This document shows, piece after piece, positions 48,293 to 60,489 of a stretch of DNA of 64,000 bases (its first letter is position 1; each line of letters opens with the position of its first letter). The notes beneath the pieces were generated by a model that had not been told where the DNA came from, searched no databases, and saw nothing but the letters and a program-made list of their open reading frames with translations. This DNA comes from Janthinobacterium lividum (GTDB taxonomy: Bacteria > Pseudomonadota > Gammaproteobacteria > Burkholderiales > Burkholderiaceae_D). The stretch is from contig NZ_CP075583.1 of NCBI RefSeq assembly GCF_023509035.1, positions 372,001 to 436,000 on the forward strand, given 5' to 3'. A program made the position numbers and the translations under genes.

Positions 48293-49015
48293 ATGGCAAA
48301 CCCGCAAATGCCCCAAATGCCGGGCGCAGCAGTTGTGACCGATACGCTCGACTTCGTCAAGAACCTGTGGGGCAGCATGAGCGTGCCCGGCATGGGCATG
48401 CCTGGCATCACGGCGCCCACCATGTCGGTGGAAGAGCTGGACAAAAAAATCAGCGACTTGAAAGCCGTCGAAGCCTGGCTGAACCTCAATATCAGCATGC
48501 TGCGCGGCAGTATCCAGGCGCTGGAAGTGCAGCGCGGCACCATCGCCACCCTGAAATCGATGGGTGCGTCACTGGCGGCGGCCATCACGCAACCGGGCGC
48601 CAGCGAGAAAACCGTGTTTGAATCGGTGCCCTACGCTTCCGCGTTTTTCCAACAAGCCGCACCTGCGGCGCCAGCGCCTGCACCGAAACCGGCACCTGCA
48701 CCTGCACCTGTGCCGGAACCCGCCGCAGCGGCGCCCAGCGATGCCGACAGCCAGGCGGCAGCCCAGCTGGCCAATCCAAGTGCCTGGTGGAATTTGTTAC
48801 AAGATCAGTTCAAGCAGGCCGTATCGACGGCCATGTCGCCCGACGCCGGCAGTGCGGCAGCGGCCAACTTTGGCAGCGTGAGCAAAGCCAAGCCAGCGGC
48901 CAGCAAGCCCGCCAAACCTGCCGAGGCAGGCACGGCAGCCAAGGCCAAGGCCCCGCTGCGCAAGGCACCCGCGAAACGCGCAGCGCCCAAGACTAAAGCA
49001 CCAGGCAAGGCCTGA
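48293..49015 (+). CDS. phaM: PhaM family polyhydroxyalkanoate granule regulatory protein
   Basis: A protein of 240 residues. The N-terminal ~100 residues (DFVKNLWGSMSVPGMGMPG, MSVEELDKKISDLKAVEAWL, LNISMLRGSIQALEVQR) match PhaM. A Pro/Ala linker and a Lys/Ala/Pro-rich, histone-H1-like tail (LRKAPAKRAAPKTKAPGKA) follow. PhaM binds PHA synthase and DNA, activating synthesis and distributing PHB granules to daughter cells. No phaC gene is in the window. Confidence 0.93.
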   Translation: MANPQMPQMPGAAVVTDTLDFVKNLWGSMSVPGMGMPGITAPTMSVEELDKKISDLKAVEAWLNLNISMLRGSIQALEVQRGTIATLKSMGASLAAAITQPGASEKTVFESVPYASAFFQQAAPAAPAPAPKPAPAPAPVPEPAAAAPSDADSQAAAQLANPSAWWNLLQDQFKQAVSTAMSPDAGSAAAANFGSVSKAKPAASKPAKPAEAGTAAKAKAPLRKAPAKRAAPKTKAPGKA

Positions 49016-51934: not shown

Positions 51935-53746
51935 TCAGCGGCGCGCGCCCGCCAGGCGTTTGACCACGACGATCATGCGATCGATCTCCTCATACGTATT
52001 GTAGAAGGCGAACGAGGGTCGCACGGTCGCTTCCACGCCGAAGCGGCGCAAAATCGGCTGGGCGCAATGGTGGCCCGAGCGCACGGCGATGCCCTCGTCG
52101 TTCAGGGCGCGCCCCACTTCCGCTGGCTCGTAGCCGGCCAGCACGAACGAAGCCACGCTGGCCTTTTCAAACGCCGTGCCGATCAGGCGCACGCCAGGTA
52201 TGGCTTGCAGGTGGTGCGTCGCGTATTCCAGCAGTGCGTGCTCGTAGGCGGCGATGTTTTCCAGGCCGATGCGCTGCACGTAATCGATGGCCGCGCCCAG
52301 GCCCACGGCATCGGCGATATTGCCCGTGCCCGCCTCGAAACGGTTCGGCACGCCCTGGTAGACGGTGCGCTCGAACGTGACGTCGGCGATCATATTACCG
52401 CCACCCTGCCATGGCGGCAGTTGCTCCAGCAAGTCCGCCTTGCCATACACGGCGCCGATGCCCGTCGGGCCGAACACTTTATGCCCCGAGAAGACATAAA
52501 AATCGGCGCCCAGCGCCTGCACGTCCACGCGCAGGTGCGACACGGCTTGCGCCCCATCGACCAGCACGCGCACGCCGGCCGCATGCGCCAGCGCGATGAT
52601 CTGCGCCACGGGCGTCACCGTCCCCAGCGCATTCGACACCTGCGTCACGGACACCAGCTTGGTACGCCCGTTGAGCAGCTTGCGGAATTCATCGAGGAGT
52701 ATCTGGCCGCTGTCGTCGACTGGAATCACGCGCAGGGTCGCGCCCTTTTCCGCCGCCAGCTGCTGCCACGGCACGATATTGGCGTGGTGCTCGAGCTGCG
52801 AGACGATGATCTCGTCGCCGCTGCCGATGTACTTGCGGCCAAAGGTATTGGCGACCAGGTTGATGCCCTCGGTTGCGCCGCGGACAAAAATGATTTCATT
52901 GGCCGACGCAGCGCCGAGGAAGTTCGCCACCTTGGCGCGTGCCGCCTCGTACGCATCGCTGGCGCGCGCCGCCAGCGCGTGGGCGGCGCGGTGGATGTTC
53001 GAATTCTCGTGCGCATAGAAATACGACACCCGGTCGATCACCGACTGCGGCTTGTGCGTGGTGGCCGCATTATCGAACCATGCCAGCGGCTTGCCGTTGA
53101 CCCGTTCGGCCAGCACGGGAAAATCGCGCCGCACGGCGTGCACGTCGAACGGCGCCGGCGTCCGGTGGTGACCCGGCTTCGTCGCGGAGGGCAGCTCGGT
53201 CTGGAAATAAAACGCGGGCTGGCTGTTAGCCGGCGCCACGGGCAGTTGCTGCGCAGGTAAGCGCTGCGGCGTGGCAAACAGTCCCCGCAAATCATCGGGG
53301 GCCGCCGGCCCCTGTCCCAGCCCCTGCTGCGCCAGGCCGTCGAGCTTGCCGTTCGACACGGGATAACCATGTGCGCCGCCGACAAAATAGTAGGGCGACG
53401 GCGCACTCAGGGCCGACAGGCGTGGCGTCGGCACGGAGGCAGGCGCCGGTGCAATCGGCGACTCCAGGGGAACCGTCACGGGCGGCACTTGCGCCGTCGC
53501 CACGCCGGGGGCGATGGCGGCGAAGGAAGGACCGGGTTGTGGCGGCGGACGGTTCGCATAGCGGGGCGCCGCATCGAGCACGCTGCCGGAGCCACCGAGA
53601 CTGGGAGACTTGTCCAACGCAGGGGGCAACCCCGGCAAACGCGCGAAAAACTCGCCCGCCAGCCGGTTCAGGGTCGCTTCATCGGGTAAAAACGGGACGG
53701 CAGGCAAGCCCGCCGCGCCATCACTTGTAGGTGTCTGGGTAGTCAT
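51935..53746 (-). CDS. Encapsulin family 2A cargo: cysteine desulfurase (SufS-type) with N-terminal loading domain
   Basis: A protein of 603 residues. Residues 1-200 are Pro/Ala-rich and probably disordered (PPPQPGPSF, APAPASVPTPRL, PSPYYFVGGAHGY), the cargo-loading domain of family 2A encapsulin desulfurases. Residues about 200-603 are a class V PLP enzyme with the lysine at Lys423 (FSGHKVFGPTG) and the active-site cysteine at Cys561 (SGHHCAQP). It converts cysteine to alanine and persulfide sulfur inside the shell. The start at 53744-53746 (MTTQTPTSDG) lies inside the end of the shell gene, overlapping it by 26 bp. An in-frame ATG at 53788 is less likely. Confidence 0.92.
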   Translation of the reverse strand: MTTQTPTSDGAAGLPAVPFLPDEATLNRLAGEFFARLPGLPPALDKSPSLGGSGSVLDAAPRYANRPPPQPGPSFAAIAPGVATAQVPPVTVPLESPIAPAPASVPTPRLSALSAPSPYYFVGGAHGYPVSNGKLDGLAQQGLGQGPAAPDDLRGLFATPQRLPAQQLPVAPANSQPAFYFQTELPSATKPGHHRTPAPFDVHAVRRDFPVLAERVNGKPLAWFDNAATTHKPQSVIDRVSYFYAHENSNIHRAAHALAARASDAYEAARAKVANFLGAASANEIIFVRGATEGINLVANTFGRKYIGSGDEIIVSQLEHHANIVPWQQLAAEKGATLRVIPVDDSGQILLDEFRKLLNGRTKLVSVTQVSNALGTVTPVAQIIALAHAAGVRVLVDGAQAVSHLRVDVQALGADFYVFSGHKVFGPTGIGAVYGKADLLEQLPPWQGGGNMIADVTFERTVYQGVPNRFEAGTGNIADAVGLGAAIDYVQRIGLENIAAYEHALLEYATHHLQAIPGVRLIGTAFEKASVASFVLAGYEPAEVGRALNDEGIAVRSGHHCAQPILRRFGVEATVRPSFAFYNTYEEIDRMIVVVKRLAGARR

Positions 53747-54650
53747 GGTATTTACCGATCTCCACGTCTTCCAGTACGGCCAGCGCATCGTCGGTCAGCA
53801 CGGCCAGCGAGCAATACAGCGAAATCAGGTAGGACGAAATCGCGTGGCGGTTGATGCCCATGAAACGCACGGACAGGCCCGGGCTTTGCTCGCCCGCCAG
53901 GCCAGGCTGGAACAGGCCGATCACGCCTTGCCGCTGTTCGCCCGCGCGCAGCAGGATGATTTTCGTCTTGCCGTCTTCGATGGGCAGTTTGTCGGACGGC
54001 ACCAGCGGCACGCCGCGCCACGTCAAAAACTGCGAACCGAACAGGCTGACGGTCGGTGGCGGCACGCCGCGGCGCGTGCATTCACGGCCGAAGGCTGCAA
54101 TGGCCAGCGGGTGCGCCAGGAAAAAGCCCGGCTCCTTCCATACTTTCGTCAGCAGTTCGTCGAGGTCATCCGGCGTGGGCGCGCCCGTCAGGGTAAAGAT
54201 GCGCTGGTCGTCGTGCACGCTGGCCAGCAGGCCGTAATCGGGATTGTTGATCAATTCGCTTTCCTGGCGCTCCTTGATCGTCTCGATGGTCAGGCGCAGC
54301 TGCTCCTTGATCTGGTCGTGCGGGCTGCTGTACAGGTCCGACACGCGCGTGTGCACGTCGAGCACCGTGCTGACGGCATTGAGAAAATATTCGCGCGGCT
54401 GGTCATCGTAGTCGACGAAAGTTTGCGGCAGTTCCGACTCGTCGCGCTGCGAGCAGGCCACGCGCACATCCTTCGGGTTTTTCACGCGGTTCAGGCGGTA
54501 GATACCCGCTTCCACGGGCAGCCATTGCAGCAGGTGCACGAGCCAGCGCGGCGTGATCGTGGATAACTGGGGGACGCTCTTGCTTGCATTGGCCAGCTGG
54601 CGCGCGGCGTTATCGCCCAGCGCGAACTGGCTCTCTGTTGCTTCTGCCAT
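53721..54650 (-). CDS. Family 2A encapsulin nanocompartment shell protein (SrpI type)
   Basis: A protein of 309 residues with an AGGAG 5 nt before the ATG. The N-terminal extension typical of family 2 shells (about 1-40, AARQLANASKSVPQLSTITPR) leads into an HK97-type fold with RWLVHLLQWLPVEAGIYRLNRV, an extended E-loop region and a C-terminal strand region (FQPGLAGEQSPGLSVRFMGINRHAISSYL). Lacking a nucleotide-binding insert, it belongs to family 2A, as in Synechococcus SrpI. The shell assembles into a virus-like particle that encloses the downstream desulfurase. Confidence 0.93.
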   Translation of the reverse strand: MAEATESQFALGDNAARQLANASKSVPQLSTITPRWLVHLLQWLPVEAGIYRLNRVKNPKDVRVACSQRDESELPQTFVDYDDQPREYFLNAVSTVLDVHTRVSDLYSSPHDQIKEQLRLTIETIKERQESELINNPDYGLLASVHDDQRIFTLTGAPTPDDLDELLTKVWKEPGFFLAHPLAIAAFGRECTRRGVPPPTVSLFGSQFLTWRGVPLVPSDKLPIEDGKTKIILLRAGEQRQGVIGLFQPGLAGEQSPGLSVRFMGINRHAISSYLISLYCSLAVLTDDALAVLEDVEIGKYHDYPDTYK

Positions 54651-54699
54651 GACTACTCCTGATGAGAAAAGTGAATATGCTTATCTGAAAAACGAATAA

Positions 54700-54728
54700 A
54701 GTATCGGGCGCACCTCTCATTTACTCAA
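54700..54728 (-). promoter_or_regulatory. Candidate promoter directly upstream of the encapsulin shell gene
   Basis: On the minus strand TTGAGT (54723-54728) and GATACT (54700-54705) are exactly 17 bp apart, about 50 bp before the shell ATG, in the AT-rich gap after the XRE gene. This suggests that the shell and cargo genes can be transcribed apart from the upstream sulfur genes. Confidence 0.5.
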
Positions 54729-54766
54729 CATGCTATCGCCACCAAAACAGCTTTTAATCACCCCGT

Positions 54767-54991
54767 TTAATCCACCAGCTCCGGTTCACAGCGCGCCATC
54801 AATCCCGCCAGGCCGATGCCCAGCGCGCCGGCCAGTTTTTCCACCGTCAGCAGCGACGGCGTGGCGGCGCCACGCTCTATTTCGCCGATAAACGAGCGGT
54901 TCAAGTCGGCCGCTTCGGCCAGCCGCTCCTGCGACCAGCCATGCCCTTCGCGCAACTGGCGCACGGCCAGTCCAAACTGTTTGATCAACAT
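54767..54991 (-). CDS. XRE family HTH regulator in the encapsulin operon
   Basis: A protein of 74 residues from the ATG at 54989-54991, with GAGGA 4-5 nt upstream. It is almost entirely one HTH_3 domain: LREGHGWSQERLAEAADLNRSFIGEIERG and SLLTVEKLAGALGI. There is no sensor domain. It is 7 bp after the serine acetyltransferase and 116 bp before the shell gene, so it probably regulates this locus. Confidence 0.88.
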   Translation of the reverse strand: MLIKQFGLAVRQLREGHGWSQERLAEAADLNRSFIGEIERGAATPSLLTVEKLAGALGIGLAGLMARCEPELVD

Positions 54992-54998
54992 GCTGTCC

Positions 54999-55985
54999 TC
55001 ATGGGTGGTGGGCAAAAGCGGGGTGGGGTGGCGCCGGAAAATCCGCTGCCTCCTGCTGGTTATGCGCTTGCGTGACATGGCTGCCGGGGGCCACGCTGCG
55101 GGTCAGCCAGACATTGCCGCCGATGACGGAGCCCTGGCCGATGGTCACGCGCCCGAGTATGGTGGCACCCGCGTAGATGACCACGTCGTCCTGCACGATG
55201 GGATGGCGCGCCAGTCCCTTTTTCAGCACGCCATCGGCGCCGGCGGGGAAGCGCTTGGCGCCCAGGGTGACGGCCTGGTAGATGCGCACGCGCTCGCCGA
55301 TGATGGCCGTCTCGCCGATCACCACGCCCGTACCATGGTCGATGAAAAAGCTGCTGCCGATGATGGCGCCCGGATGGATGTCGATGCCCGTCTGCGAATG
55401 GGCCACTTCGGCGATGATGCGCGCCACCAGCGGCGCGCCCAGTGCATACAAGGTGTGCGCCAGGCGGTAGTGGATGATGGCCAGGATGCCCGGATAGCAC
55501 AGCAGCACTTCATCGACGCTGTGTGCGGCCGGGTCGCCATGGAAGGCGGCCGCCACGTCCGTGTCGAGCTGGGCGCGGATGCGCGGCAGCGCGCGGGCGA
55601 AGCGCTGCACGATGGCCAGCGCCTGCTGTTCGATGGAGACTGTCTGCTGCAAGCCATGCTGGCGTGCGTGGTAACTGAGTTCGCGCCGCACCTGTTCGTG
55701 CAGGCCCGTCAAGGTCGTGTCGAGCGTGTGGCCGACAAAGAAATCCTCGCTCTCCTGCTGCAGGTCGAGGGGTCCCAGGCGCATGGGAAACAGGGCCGCG
55801 CACAGGGCGCCGACGATGTCGCGCAAATGCTGGCGCGACGGAAATTCGCGCGCGCCGCACTCCTGGCTGCTGGCCAGTCCTTCGCGCCATTGTGCGCGCA
55901 CGGCGCGCAATTCATCGACGATCTGGCGCAGCTCCCACTGCGGCTGCGCGGCAAAGGAGGCAGGGGGAATGGCTCGCTGATTCAT
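54999..55985 (-). CDS. Serine O-acetyltransferase (EpsC/SrpH-like)
   Basis: A protein of 328 residues from the ATG at 55983-55985; the longer frame to 56228 is not conserved. The C-terminal ~130 residues are a left-handed beta-helix of hexapeptide repeats (GIDIHPGAIIG, GTGVVIGETAIIGERVRIY, VIYAGATILGRVTIG). The conserved His residues of serine acetyltransferase lie in IDIHPG and FFIDHGTG. It makes O-acetylserine, the carbon backbone for cysteine, from serine and acetyl-CoA. Its position beside the encapsulin matches srpH next to srpI in cyanobacteria. Confidence 0.92.
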   Translation of the reverse strand: MNQRAIPPASFAAQPQWELRQIVDELRAVRAQWREGLASSQECGAREFPSRQHLRDIVGALCAALFPMRLGPLDLQQESEDFFVGHTLDTTLTGLHEQVRRELSYHARQHGLQQTVSIEQQALAIVQRFARALPRIRAQLDTDVAAAFHGDPAAHSVDEVLLCYPGILAIIHYRLAHTLYALGAPLVARIIAEVAHSQTGIDIHPGAIIGSSFFIDHGTGVVIGETAIIGERVRIYQAVTLGAKRFPAGADGVLKKGLARHPIVQDDVVIYAGATILGRVTIGQGSVIGGNVWLTRSVAPGSHVTQAHNQQEAADFPAPPHPAFAHHP

Positions 55986-56004
55986 GGTGGTCCCGGGAAC
56001 AGAG

Positions 56005-56502
56005 TTAATCTTGCAGCCAAGGCAGCGCATGCCAGCGCCAGCCGCCGCTATGGCCGCGCTGCTGCTGCCCGTCGAGGTCACCCTCGAAGCCTTGCGCGAT
56101 ATTGAAGACGTGCGTGAAACCGGCCTTGGCAGCCGCTTCGGCGGCCGCGGCCGAGCGCTTGCCGCTGCGGCACAGCAGCACCACGACGGCATCCTTGCCG
56201 CCCACCTTCGCTTCCAGTTCGCGCACAAAGCGGGGATTACGGTTCATGGACGTGCCGGTGGCCCACGCCACATGCAGCGAGGCCGGCACGTAGCCGACGA
56301 AAGTGCGTTCCTCGTTGGTGCGCACGTCGACCAGTGCGGCTTTGCCAGCCTGCACCAGCTGCCACGCATCCTGCGCGCTGACGATGCCCGCATACGGCAA
56401 GCCCTGGGCCTGCGCCTGGGCGCGCGCGAGATGGAGTACTTCGTCAAAAGCCGCCTCGCCGTGCGCGGCGCGGGGATCGAAAATCAGTTCTGCAGCAGCC
56501 AT
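56005..56502 (-). CDS. Rhodanese-like sulfurtransferase
   Basis: A protein of 165 residues with one rhodanese domain: ALVDVRTNEERTFVGYVP near the start of the domain and the active-site loop CRSGKRS with Cys111. It would carry sulfane sulfur as a persulfide. It is the first gene of the encapsulin operon, 19 bp before the acetyltransferase. A weak inverted repeat (cgaac-7-gttcg, 56553-56569) lies about 50 bp upstream of the start and could be an operator. Confidence 0.92.
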   Translation of the reverse strand: MAAAELIFDPRAAHGEAAFDEVLHLARAQAQAQGLPYAGIVSAQDAWQLVQAGKAALVDVRTNEERTFVGYVPASLHVAWATGTSMNRNPRFVRELEAKVGGKDAVVVLLCRSGKRSAAAAEAAAKAGFTHVFNIAQGFEGDLDGQQQRGHSGGWRWHALPWLQD

Positions 56503-56717
56503 CAGTCCACCTCTTTATTCCGTCGTCAAAAATCAGCACGAGTCCACTGTAGCGAACTTATGTTGTTCGGAAAACAAATTAAAAAGAGTTTGGAAAGCTG
56601 AAAAACGTATATGGAGGATATTGCGGCATGGAGCGTCTGAAAATGCCCAGGGCTAGGCGGAGTGCCGAAGACAGTACGAATGTACGGCGAGGCAGGACAA
56701 CAACGCCATGGACTTTT

Positions 56718-58349
56718 TCAGGCGTTCCGGCGGCGCTCGCGCAACAAGAAACGCGCAGGATCCAACGCGGCGGCAAGCGACGATTCCAGCGGCAGCGGCT
56801 CGCCCTCCAGCTGGCAAGCCAGCAGCTCGGCCGCCAGCGGCGCCCAGATCAGGCCGCGCGAGGCGTAACCGAGCAAGCCAAACAGGCCGGGCCAGCGCGG
56901 CACGTCGCGCAAGCGCTCGCAGCGGCCCGGCACGCCCGGGTCGGGCAAGGCGCCCGCCAGCGGCAGGCGGTCCGGCGCCATACAGCGAAAGCCCGTGCGC
57001 CCGGCCAGCGGCGCCTCGAACGGGGTCACGCCAAGGATGTCGGCGATCTTCGCGATATTTTCGTGCTGGCTGGCCACGCGCAGGCTGCTGTCTGCATCGG
57101 CATCATAGGTCGCGCCCACGCACATGACGCCCTGGTGCGCCGGCGTCATGTAGGCTTCGCGGCAGACGACGAACGGCAACGAGGGCAAGCTGCCTTCGGC
57201 AAGGTGCGTGACCTGGCCGCGCACGGCGTCCAGCGGCAGGCCGGCCGCCTGTTCGAAATCCACGGCACCCGTGCCTGCCGCCAGGATGACGGTGGGTGCC
57301 GCCGCGATCAGGGTACCGTCCGCATCGCGCACCAGCCATTCCTCATCGCCGCGCTCCAGGCGCAGGGCGCTGCTGGAAAAGCGCCGCGTGAGCAAGGCGC
57401 CGCAGGCGTCCAGCATGGCCGCGCAAACGGAAGACGGGCGCGCCCAGCCGCCCTGCTCGAACCACCAGGCGCCATCGGGCGCCGACGCGCCCAGCATGGC
57501 GGTCGCCTCGGGTGCTTCCAGCCAGCGGGCGAATTCGCGTGGATACACGCCACTGGCGGCGATCTGCCGCTGCACCTGCGCATGCGCGCCGTCGCGCGCC
57601 AGATGCAGCACGCCGCTCTGTACACCCTCGATGGCGGCGCCGATGCCGCCCAGGTCTTTCCAGCGGCTCAGCGAGTACAGGTAGGCGGCGCGCACCAGGC
57701 GCGTGGCGATATTGTCGTCCTTCGACATCAGCGGCATGAAGATGCCGGCCAGGTTGCCCGACGCTTCGCCGGCCGGCTGCGCGTGGCGCTCGACCAAGGT
57801 CACCTTCCAGCCGCGCGCGGCCAGCCGTTCGCAGGCGGCCGCACCGGCCACGCCCGCGCCGATGACGATGGCGCGCCGCTCGGGCGCGGTGATGGCCGCG
57901 TGCTCTCCGCGCCGCGCATAAAACACGGCGCGCAATCGACTCTCGTCAAAAACAAAGCCATTTTTTTGCAATTCCGTGCGCTGCGCCTCGTCCAGGTGCA
58001 CGGCTTGCAGGCGGGCGCCGTCCATCATCAGGCGCGCCAGCACCGGCGTGGCTGCCGGCACCCAGGCCAGGTGCACTTCATCGACTCGCGCCGACAATTG
58101 CGCCAGGCAGGCATCGGGTTCGCCGATCAGCAGATCGAGTGTGACGAGGCCATCGTTTGAGACCATGCGATGCAGGCCCGGCACGCAAAGCGGCCACTGC
58201 GCGCGCCACTGCTCGGGCAAGTGGCGGGCATCGACGGGACGCGGCGCCAGCGCGATGTAATGCAGACGGCGACCGCCATGCGCCGCGCAAACGGCACGCA
58301 AGCGGGCGCCGTCAAAATCCGTGTCGAGCAAGACCAGCGCGCGGCGCAT
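56718..58349 (-). CDS. mnmC: MnmC-like FAD-dependent oxidoreductase with degenerate N-terminal methyltransferase part
   Basis: A protein of 543 residues from the ATG at 58347-58349. From about residue 155 it matches the MnmC FAD domain: GAGVAG at 164-169, GEASGNLAGIFMPLMSKDDN and GARVFPV-like motifs are absent or present as expected for the family, and RTGFRCMAPDRLPLAG is near the C-terminus. It oxidises cmnm5 groups at tRNA position 34 to nm5. The N-terminal ~150 residues resemble only the back half of the MnmD methyltransferase domain (WPLCVPGLHRM, GLVTLDLLIG); the SAM-binding GTGLNF motif and the DGF catalytic site are missing. The start overlaps the stop of tag (TGATG). Confidence 0.82.
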   Translation of the reverse strand: MRRALVLLDTDFDGARLRAVCAAHGGRRLHYIALAPRPVDARHLPEQWRAQWPLCVPGLHRMVSNDGLVTLDLLIGEPDACLAQLSARVDEVHLAWVPAATPVLARLMMDGARLQAVHLDEAQRTELQKNGFVFDESRLRAVFYARRGEHAAITAPERRAIVIGAGVAGAAACERLAARGWKVTLVERHAQPAGEASGNLAGIFMPLMSKDDNIATRLVRAAYLYSLSRWKDLGGIGAAIEGVQSGVLHLARDGAHAQVQRQIAASGVYPREFARWLEAPEATAMLGASAPDGAWWFEQGGWARPSSVCAAMLDACGALLTRRFSSSALRLERGDEEWLVRDADGTLIAAAPTVILAAGTGAVDFEQAAGLPLDAVRGQVTHLAEGSLPSLPFVVCREAYMTPAHQGVMCVGATYDADADSSLRVASQHENIAKIADILGVTPFEAPLAGRTGFRCMAPDRLPLAGALPDPGVPGRCERLRDVPRWPGLFGLLGYASRGLIWAPLAAELLACQLEGEPLPLESSLAAALDPARFLLRERRRNA

Positions 58350-58927
58350 CAATGCCCCGCACGGCAAAAGCAGGTCGGCGCATGGTCGTTGACCATGCCG
58401 ATGCCCTGCATGTAGGCGTAAATGATGGTCGAGCCGACGAACTTGAAGCCCCGCTTGAGCAAGTCTTTCGACAATGTGTCGGACAAGGCCGTCTTGGCGG
58501 GAAAGGCGCCGGGCTGCCAGCTATTGACGATAGGCTGGCCATCGACATACGCCCACAGGAAGCTGTCCAGGGTCTGCCCTTCCGCGCGCAGGCGCAGGTA
58601 GGCTTGCGCATTCGTGATGGCCGCCGCCACCTTCAGGCGGTTGCGCACGATGCCGGGGTCGAGCAGCAGCTGCGCCACCTTGTCCGGACCATACGCGGCG
58701 ATCTTTTCCGCATCCCAGTGATCAAACGCGGCGCGGTAGGTATCGCGCTTGTTGAGGATGGTTTCCCAGCTCAGGCCCGCCTGCGCGCCTTCCAGGTTCA
58801 GCATCTCGAACAGCCGGCGCTCGTCGTGGCAGGGCACGCCCCACTCCGTATCGTGGTAATCGAGATAGCGGGGATTGGCCGGATTGGCCCAGGAGCAGCG
58901 GATGGTGGTCATGGTCGTGTTCTTCAT
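58349..58927 (-). CDS. tag: DNA-3-methyladenine glycosylase I
   Basis: A protein of 192 residues. It has the Tag signature RCSWANPANPRYLDYHDTEWG with a zinc-binding Cys and His, FEMLNLEGAQAGLSW, and the C-terminal zinc ligands in HAPTCFCR. It removes 3-methyladenine from alkylated DNA. The ATG at 58925-58927 is used; a second ATG five codons later (MTTIRCSW) is also plausible. Its stop overlaps the mnmC-like start. Confidence 0.95.
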   Translation of the reverse strand: MKNTTMTTIRCSWANPANPRYLDYHDTEWGVPCHDERRLFEMLNLEGAQAGLSWETILNKRDTYRAAFDHWDAEKIAAYGPDKVAQLLLDPGIVRNRLKVAAAITNAQAYLRLRAEGQTLDSFLWAYVDGQPIVNSWQPGAFPAKTALSDTLSKDLLKRGFKFVGSTIIYAYMQGIGMVNDHAPTCFCRAGH

Positions 58928-58950: not shown

Positions 58951-60447
58951 TTATCGGCCGCGCAGGAGGCGCCCAAGTTCCAGCAAACCGTGCGCCATCT
59001 CGGCCGGGGGAATTGCCGCAAAGCCCAGCAGCAGCCCTGGCGGCGTGGCGCACTCCGGCCCCGCCGCCGGATCGGCATAGTGGCCCAGCGGGCGCAATTC
59101 GATGCCCCGTGCCAGGCCCGCACGCGCGACCGTCTCTTCATCGTGGCCAGCGCGAAAATACGCGCACAGTTCCAGGCCGCTGTCGGCCGGGCCGCACGCG
59201 AGCTGGTCGTCGAGTTCACGCGCAAGCCCGCGCACCAGCAGATCGCGCCGTTCGGCATTGCTGTCGCGCGTGCGGCGGATATGCCGCCCAAAGTGGCCCT
59301 CGGCGATGAAGTCCGCCAGCGCCATCTGCGGCACGATGGCCGTATGGCGGTCCATCACGGCCTTGGCTTGCACCAGCGCTTCGGCCAGCGCGGGCGGCGC
59401 CACCATGTAACCGAGGCGCAGCCCGGGAAACAGCACCTTCGACATCGTCCCCACATAGACCACGCAACCATCGCGGTCCAGGCTTTGCAGCGAGGCCAGC
59501 GGCGCGCCCGCGTAGCGGTATTCGCTGTCGTAATCGTCTTCCACCAGCCACGCCTTGTTGTGCGCGGCCCAGGCCAGCAGGGCCAGGCGGCGGGGCAAGC
59601 TCATGCTCACGCCCAGCGGCATCTGGTGCGATGGCGTCACGTACGCCAGCTTCGCCTGCGGGCAGTGCGCCACGCCGTACGCCACATCGAGCCCCTGCGC
59701 ATCGACGGGGACGGGAAACACGCGCGCGCCGGCCGCGCGCAAAGGGCCGCTGGCGCCCCGGTAGCCGGGCGACTCCATCCAGGCAGAGTCGCCCGGCGCC
59801 AGCAGGATGGTCGACAGCAGGAACAGCGCCTGCTGCGAGCCCGAGGTGATGACGATCTGCTGCGGCGTGCACTGGACGCCGCGCGAGGCCTTCAGGTACA
59901 CGCACAGCAGTTCGCGCAGCGGCAGGAAGCCGGCCGGGTCGCTGTAGCCGAAATGGTGGTCTGGCCGGCGCCAGCGCCGCGCTTCCAGGCGGTTCCACAC
60001 GTCGAACGGGAAATGGTCGATGCGCGGCATGCCGACGCGAAATGCGCGCAGCGGCCCCCGGTGGAAGGCCACCTGGCGCATGGCCTCCACCACGCCCTGT
60101 CCGCGCGACGACAGGGGCCGCAGCAGGCCGGGCGCTTCCGCCTTGCCGGCCGGCGCGGGCTGGGGCGCGGGCAGCGGAACGTCGCGGCTGACAAAGGTGC
60201 CGCGCCCCACGGCGCCATCGAGATAACCTTCGGCCGCCAGCTGCGCATACGCATTGAGCACCGTCTGGCGCGACACGGCCAGCAGGCGGCAAAAGTCGCG
60301 CGTGGGCGGCAGCTGCATGCCGGGACTGATGCGGCCATCGAGGATGGCCGCCTTGATGGCCGCATACAGCTGGCGAAACAGCGGCTCGATGGCGCTGCGC
60401 TGCAGCGGCAAGGCGGCGATGATCTGGTTCAGGTGCGAAGCTGGCAT
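58951..60447 (-). CDS. MocR/PdxR family regulator (GntR HTH + aminotransferase-like domain)
   Basis: A protein of 498 residues. The N-terminal GntR winged helix (FRQLYAAIKAAILDGRISPGMQLP, SRQTVLNAYAQLAAEGYL) is followed by a class I aminotransferase-like domain (ITSGSQQALFLLSTILLAPGD, WLVEDDYDSEYRYAG). The PLP lysine is in GTMSKVLFPGLRLGY. MocR proteins bind PLP and regulate genes close by. The start at 60445-60447 (MPASHLNQ) lies about 45 bp from a perfect 21-bp palindrome shared with the divergent osmC-paiB genes. Confidence 0.9.
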   Translation of the reverse strand: MPASHLNQIIAALPLQRSAIEPLFRQLYAAIKAAILDGRISPGMQLPPTRDFCRLLAVSRQTVLNAYAQLAAEGYLDGAVGRGTFVSRDVPLPAPQPAPAGKAEAPGLLRPLSSRGQGVVEAMRQVAFHRGPLRAFRVGMPRIDHFPFDVWNRLEARRWRRPDHHFGYSDPAGFLPLRELLCVYLKASRGVQCTPQQIVITSGSQQALFLLSTILLAPGDSAWMESPGYRGASGPLRAAGARVFPVPVDAQGLDVAYGVAHCPQAKLAYVTPSHQMPLGVSMSLPRRLALLAWAAHNKAWLVEDDYDSEYRYAGAPLASLQSLDRDGCVVYVGTMSKVLFPGLRLGYMVAPPALAEALVQAKAVMDRHTAIVPQMALADFIAEGHFGRHIRRTRDSNAERRDLLVRGLARELDDQLACGPADSGLELCAYFRAGHDEETVARAGLARGIELRPLGHYADPAAGPECATPPGLLLGFAAIPPAEMAHGLLELGRLLRGR

Positions 60448-60489
60448 GGTGGGATGGCGTTTAAATTGGTAGCTTAAAGATAGCATTTA

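Follow-up and report, generated by a model that had tools for sequence, protein, structure and literature searches.

Analysis of a 64,000-nucleotide stretch of the Janthinobacterium lividum genome (contig NZ_CP075583.1, positions 372,001 to 436,000; hereafter the window, with positions counted from its first letter) showed the presence of a family 2A encapsulin locus, consisting of five minus-strand genes at 51935-56502, which encode, in this order, a rhodanese, a serine O-acetyltransferase (SAT), a stand-alone regulator of the XRE type, an encapsulin shell and a cysteine desulfurase cargo. The kind of locus is known; the new part is regulatory, namely, the pair formed by the XRE protein and a putative 21-bp operator ahead of the shell gene. 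Comparison of related loci suggests that the XRE protein is probably a switch dedicated to this locus, most likely an activating one, for the promoter of the shell and cargo genes.

The 21-bp element and its linkage to the XRE gene

The candidate operator TTGGTGGCGATAGCATGTTGA, delineated by comparative linkage to XRE, is located at positions 54725..54745 of the minus strand. The element, TTGRYGGCKATAGCMKGTTGA, is 21 bp long, contains the dyad GGCKA/TAGCM and lies approximately 100 bp upstream of the shell gene. Its presence was scored in a named set of loci, comprising the best 80 of 565 relatives, and in a second set taken from other genomes. The test list excluded loci L111-L145, which had been fetched by the motif, the window's own locus L001 and the shells that are 2B-like or partial (L151, L152, L162-L169).

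With up to 4 mismatches allowed, the element was found before the shell gene in 50 of the 51 named loci with XRE and in none of the 29 named loci without it. A weight matrix built from these 50 sites (31 distinct) was then used to score the second set, where 29 of 31 XRE-containing loci scored at least 15, and all 20 loci devoid of XRE scored at most 8.3. Among 121 distinct shells, obtained by additionally removing identical shell sequences and the split shell L177, the motif accompanied 72 of the 75 with XRE and none of the 46 that lack it. A quick tree of the shell genes, for which the same removals were made, requires at least 16 changes of the XRE state, nine of them forced by supported branches. 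Supported branches provide nine independent pairs, in which the motif changed in the same direction as XRE in 8.5 on average, in the opposite direction in 0 and remained unchanged in 0.5 (sign test, median p 0.004, range 0.004-0.016). Records outside both sets comprised Variovorax (L195) and Burkholderia arboris (L197), in which both XRE and the motif are present, and the plasmid pANL (L194) and Azospirillum (L196), in which neither a match to the XRE of the Janthinobacterium locus nor the motif was found.

The three loci that contain XRE and lack the motif all encode an unusual XRE protein. Two of them, L006 and L056, are sister rows in the tree with intact XRE frames and the sequence RSYISEIECG in the region of the recognition helix; in an alignment of 82 XRE rows, from which L021 was excluded and in which duplicates were kept, only these two are devoid of G36 and R40, which are replaced by Ser and Cys. 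In the third, L021, the XRE frame is truncated, and its N-terminal part is missing.

The distance from the XRE stop codon to the motif varies from -32 to +224 bases in the 50 named loci, and the motif begins 83-104 bases before the shell gene in 64 of the 72 distinct sequences. Where the motif is in frame with the XRE end, it encodes L-M-A-I-A-C-stop or a variant of it, and at other loci it lies beyond the stop codon, which suggests that the constraint acts on the DNA. The linkage between XRE and the motif is comparative; the three exceptional loci and the more constant spacing to the shell gene argue for a direct relation.

In L002, L019, L023, L024 and other loci, the overlapping operator supplies the last six codons and the stop codon of the XRE frame. 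The C-terminal cysteine (...IAC) of some XRE proteins was considered as a second sensor and dropped, since the operator overlap itself encodes L-M-A-I-A-C-stop; XRE of Variovorax ends with Arg in place of that cysteine.

In the host genome (6.26 Mb, single contig), the element is unique at up to 2 mismatches, and the four further matches that appear at 3 mismatches correspond to the level of a reversed-pattern control (5 matches). The XRE protein is the sole match to itself at E<=1e-8. In all ten XRE-containing genomes, the own one included, the best XRE match was located beside the shell gene on the same contig. Among 20 encapsulin genomes whose loci lack XRE, 18 contained no match at E<=1e-8, and two contained weak ones (41-42% identity).

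Candidate promoter of the shell and cargo genes and mode of control

The 3' end of the operator coincides with the TTGA of a candidate -35 box, TTGAGT (54723..54728, minus strand), which is separated by a conserved 17-bp spacer from a candidate -10 box, GATACT (54700..54705, minus strand). In the 72 distinct sequences, the hexamer that follows TTGANN at a distance of 17 bp usually reads GACACT, GATACT or a close variant, with A at the second position in 90% and T at the sixth in 93%; when spacers of 10-25 were scanned, both bases were frequent at 17 only. The shell and cargo genes have what reads as a conserved promoter of their own, at or after the end of the XRE gene. If transcription starts 7 bases past the -10 box (54693), the centre of the dyad lies near -42.5, where lambda CI and class II activators also act. 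The motif was also considered as a sigma-54 promoter and rejected as such, since it agrees neither with the spacing nor with the -12 GC of these promoters.

In the proposed mechanism, the SrpI-type shell would enclose the SufS-like cysteine desulfurase by means of the N-terminal region of the cargo, as expected from the family. SAT, together with a cysteine synthase-like gene in some relatives, would supply O-acetylserine and cysteine. The likely partner for sulfane sulfur is the rhodanese. The XRE protein would bind the 21-bp site, probably as a dimer. With the -35 box forming the 3' end of the site and the dyad near -42.5, bound XRE would most likely activate, rather than repress, transcription of the shell and cargo genes, in the manner of lambda CI at OR2 and separately from the upstream rhodanese-SAT transcript.

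Several observations weigh against this proposal. A site at the -35 box suits a repressor no less than an activator. As the XRE gene and the motif lie side by side, with overlap at some loci, their joint loss could produce the presence/absence link without binding, and the argument from the recognition helix is based on two related rows. The named set is biased to close relatives, and some species are common to both sets; the weight-matrix threshold of 15 was picked after the scores had been seen, with L022 at 15.2. A pattern search across 300 genomes of the order with one mismatch gave matches in 34 genomes, many of them at places without a shell gene: 6 of the 30 kept loci, the window's own among the six, carry one, and the reversed-pattern control also matched many genomes. 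The relaxed pattern is therefore not specific alone.

Repression of the shell promoter, in which XRE bound over the -35 box keeps RNA polymerase out and is released by a sulfur signal, is a possible but doubtful alternative. It would agree with the fact that the last four bases of the motif are the -35 box itself; small stand-alone XRE proteins, antitoxin-like ones included, are often repressors, and the window protein matches the HipB-like model TIGR03070 (51.2, under the cut-off of 71.65). The dyad centre near -42.5, however, is located ahead of the core promoter, where activators usually bind, and the -10 box, mostly GACACT or GATACT, deviates from TATAAT. An improbable explanation is that the motif is the site of a different factor, or only a part of the promoter, and disappears along with XRE as its neighbour. 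Joint loss does account for part of the link, because XRE and the motif are neighbours, and the final part of the XRE frame contains the motif at some loci. This explanation accords poorly with the steadier distance of the motif to the shell than to XRE, with the absence of the motif where XRE is intact and its helix changed (L006, L056) or XRE is truncated (L021), and with its absence from ten loci that lack XRE despite SAT-shell gaps of 219-440 bp.

The preliminary description of this DNA had proposed that O-acetylserine supply, persulfide transfer and encapsulated desulfuration form one unit that stores or buffers sulfur. Its connection of the locus with sulfur is correct, and the link to O-acetylserine is strengthened by cysteine synthase-like genes between the rhodanese and SAT genes in relatives. 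A single transcription unit of five genes that serves to store or buffer sulfur is favoured by their location on one strand, their conserved order and the published sulfur links, but is rather unlikely, because the shell and cargo genes have an apparent conserved promoter of their own inside the locus. Likewise, knockouts in Synechococcus elongatus are described in passages of PMC8049743 as having no growth defect under nutrient-replete or sulfur-starved conditions.

There is also a small chance that the XRE protein is a thiol switch, in which Cys68 senses cysteine or persulfide and sets the expression of the shell and cargo genes; the compartment would then be controlled by the sulfur pool that it handles. 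Cys68, located just past the helix-turn-helix (HTH) domain, is the only cysteine of the window XRE, and 44 of 69 distinct XRE proteins (L021 excluded) have a cysteine there. Against such a role, 10 of the 69 are devoid of cysteine, and in 10 the position is taken by Phe or Tyr. An open-literature search for a persulfide-sensing XRE protein gave no precedent to the point.

Upstream of the rhodanese gene, a block at 56546..56578 (minus strand) is common, with few changes, to 12 Janthinobacterium upstream regions and represents a candidate operon promoter; it is present in a single copy in the genome at up to 3 mismatches. Its repeat CGAAC-N7-GTTCG was rejected as an XRE site, being found in 10 of these 12 Janthinobacterium regions and in none of the 64 other named loci. 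A second operator-like core ahead of the rhodanese gene (core score >=12) was detected in 5 of 50 named loci with XRE, namely, L087, L059, L065, L104 and L108, none of which is from Janthinobacterium (control fraction 0.0012), and in 1 of 26 loci without XRE (control fraction 0.008). As a general feature, a second operator was rejected on these counts.

Genes of the locus and their distribution in relatives

The preliminary description had named five genes on one strand in the order given above, and both the coordinates and the family profiles bear this out. The rhodanese-domain protein (165 aa; 56005..56502, minus strand) matches PF00581 with 54.7 bits and contains the loop CRSGKRS, which we take to be active-site-like; a rhodanese is encoded at the locus in all 73 named relatives with sufficient flanks. 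The gene at 54999..55985 (minus strand) encodes a SAT of the EpsC/SrpH type (328 aa), with 155.2 bits to NF041874 (cut-off 150) and 162.8 to the CysE model TIGR01172, under its cut-off of 210.65. The regulator gene (54767..54991, minus strand) encodes an XRE/Cro-type stand-alone HTH protein of 74 aa, with 54.1 bits to PF01381 (HTH_3; cut-off 23). The locus thus has its own HTH regulator, as had been suggested, and this protein looks like more than a passenger.

The shell protein (309 aa; 53721..54650, minus strand) belongs to family 2A according to NF041162 (542.3 bits, cut-off 380) and PF19307 (SrpI-like, 355 bits). It aligns over almost its full length with solved family 2A shells, namely, 8t6r (598 bits, residues 5-309) and SrpI 6x8m (512 bits). 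The 2B model is also passed, with 429.4 against a cut-off of 400, which is lower than the value for 2A, and the best stretch corresponds to profile positions 210-449 of 450, the shell part. By these alignments, the shell is classified as an SrpI-like HK97-fold encapsulin of family 2A without a cNMP domain, in agreement with the shell type set for testing in the preliminary description.

The cargo gene (51935..53746, minus strand) encodes a family 2A cargo cysteine desulfurase of 603 aa (NF041166, 880.9 bits, cut-off 800), and this value, together with the overlap of the two genes, upholds the earlier assignment of a desulfurase cargo beside an SrpI-type shell. Its catalytic part aligns with the solved relative 8kg1 (655 bits, residues 199-599) and with enzymes of the SufS/CsdB type. 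The start of the cargo gene is most likely at 53746 (MTTQTPTS...), overlapping the shell end by 26 bases, and not at 53788, the start of the longer open reading frame, since the same shell/cargo offset was found in all 54 named-relative matches beginning at cargo residue 1. The N-terminal region (53153..53746, minus strand), presumed to function in cargo loading, contains the motifs LNRLAGEFFA and APSPYYFV, which are kept in relatives and resemble the two loading motifs LARLANEFFS and AASPYYFLDG given in passages of PMC8049743.

The nearest relatives in the named set are Janthinobacterium, with shells 96-100% identical. Among the 73 named loci with enough flanking sequence for the count of gene order, 41 contain rhodanese, SAT, XRE, shell and cargo genes in that order on one strand; in the rest, XRE alone (25 loci), SAT alone (6) or both genes (1) are missing. 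These counts indicate that the five-gene arrangement is not a matter of chance. No SAT match was found at the locus in L046, L047 and L049-L053, Zoogloea included, and XRE and the motif are kept in six of these seven. In five loci (L062, L080, L098, L103 and L105), a gene whose beginning resembles cysteine synthase is located between the rhodanese and SAT genes; the one checked against profiles, in L080 (3721-4698), matches PF00291. The location of such a gene beside SAT echoes cysK-epsC of pANL.

In the family to which the window belongs, shell matches were found in 39 of 145 genomes, the own genome counted (38 above the cut-off); the class sample gave 7 of 369 genomes (6 above the cut-off) and the phylum sample 17 of 398, all above the cut-off and four of them 2B-like by an inserted region. 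The family 2A shell match of L177 (G139:C1:5010721-5011604) consists of two overlapping pieces, suggesting an interrupted gene.

Three further genes of the window lie near the locus. The upstream neighbour (56718-58367, minus strand) encodes a MnmC1 domain (TIGR03197, 372 bits) and falls under the cut-off for full bifunctional MnmC, which, judging from the name of the model, presumably acts in 2-thiouridine modification of tRNA, another sulfur-dependent pathway. A MocR/PdxR-type regulator (58951-60486, minus strand; NF052282, 412 bits), of a family linked to pyridoxal phosphate (PLP), is encoded near this locus of a PLP enzyme, and a PhaM-type polyhydroxyalkanoate granule protein (NF043076) is encoded at 48293-49015 on the plus strand.

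Comparison with known systems and significance

According to passages of PMC8346489, enrichment among the accessories of family 2A desulfurase operons is highest for SAT and rhodanese, and a co-regulated rhodanese is proposed as the sulfur acceptor. These operons resemble the Janthinobacterium locus in their shell and cargo families and in both accessories; they differ in that neither an XRE regulator nor an operator is named in these passages. The rhodanese, regarded in the preliminary description as an addition, is therefore no such extra, the more so as pANL also contains both accessories. The family 2A type system of Synechococcus elongatus pANL (SrpI, 6x8m/6x8t) shares the clustering of the shell, the desulfurase with an N-terminal loading domain, SAT and rhodanese. 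Its gene order is different (cysK-epsC-srpI-cyd-rhodanese), with cysteine synthase first and rhodanese last, and no XRE gene is annotated between SAT and the shell.

Similarity is also pronounced to the solved shell 8t6r, which is presumably that of Acinetobacter baumannii, where sulfur storage is reported; shells of A. baumannii are 83.9% identical to the Janthinobacterium shell. Storage of elemental sulfur in a family 2A compartment has been reported; a search of the open literature for elemental sulfur in encapsulins gave no matching paper.

Lambda CI at OR2 and the C proteins of restriction-modification systems are activators of the XRE type with binding sites beside the -35 box. The XRE protein of the locus is similar to them in being a small HTH_3 protein with a dyad site near -42, and differs in its dedication to an encapsulin locus and in that its activating role is a prediction. 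HTH genes are already annotated at such loci in public records, for example, in Variovorax, and the family 2A locus of Azospirillum contains a larger, different and divergently transcribed gene annotated as XRE. The XRE-operator pair was not found in print among the matches listed for the open literature or in passages of PMC8346489, PMC8049743 and PMC8987985; within the same scope, no paper was found on what turns on family 2A sulfur compartments outside cyanobacteria. In passages of PMC8987985, the terms "encapsulin" and "XRE" both occur, as separate topics.

If a regulator serves this locus alone through a single genomic site, the conditions and reasons for which bacteria form such compartments would become directly accessible to experiment, and the motif may serve as a marker for such loci, represented here mostly by beta-proteobacteria.

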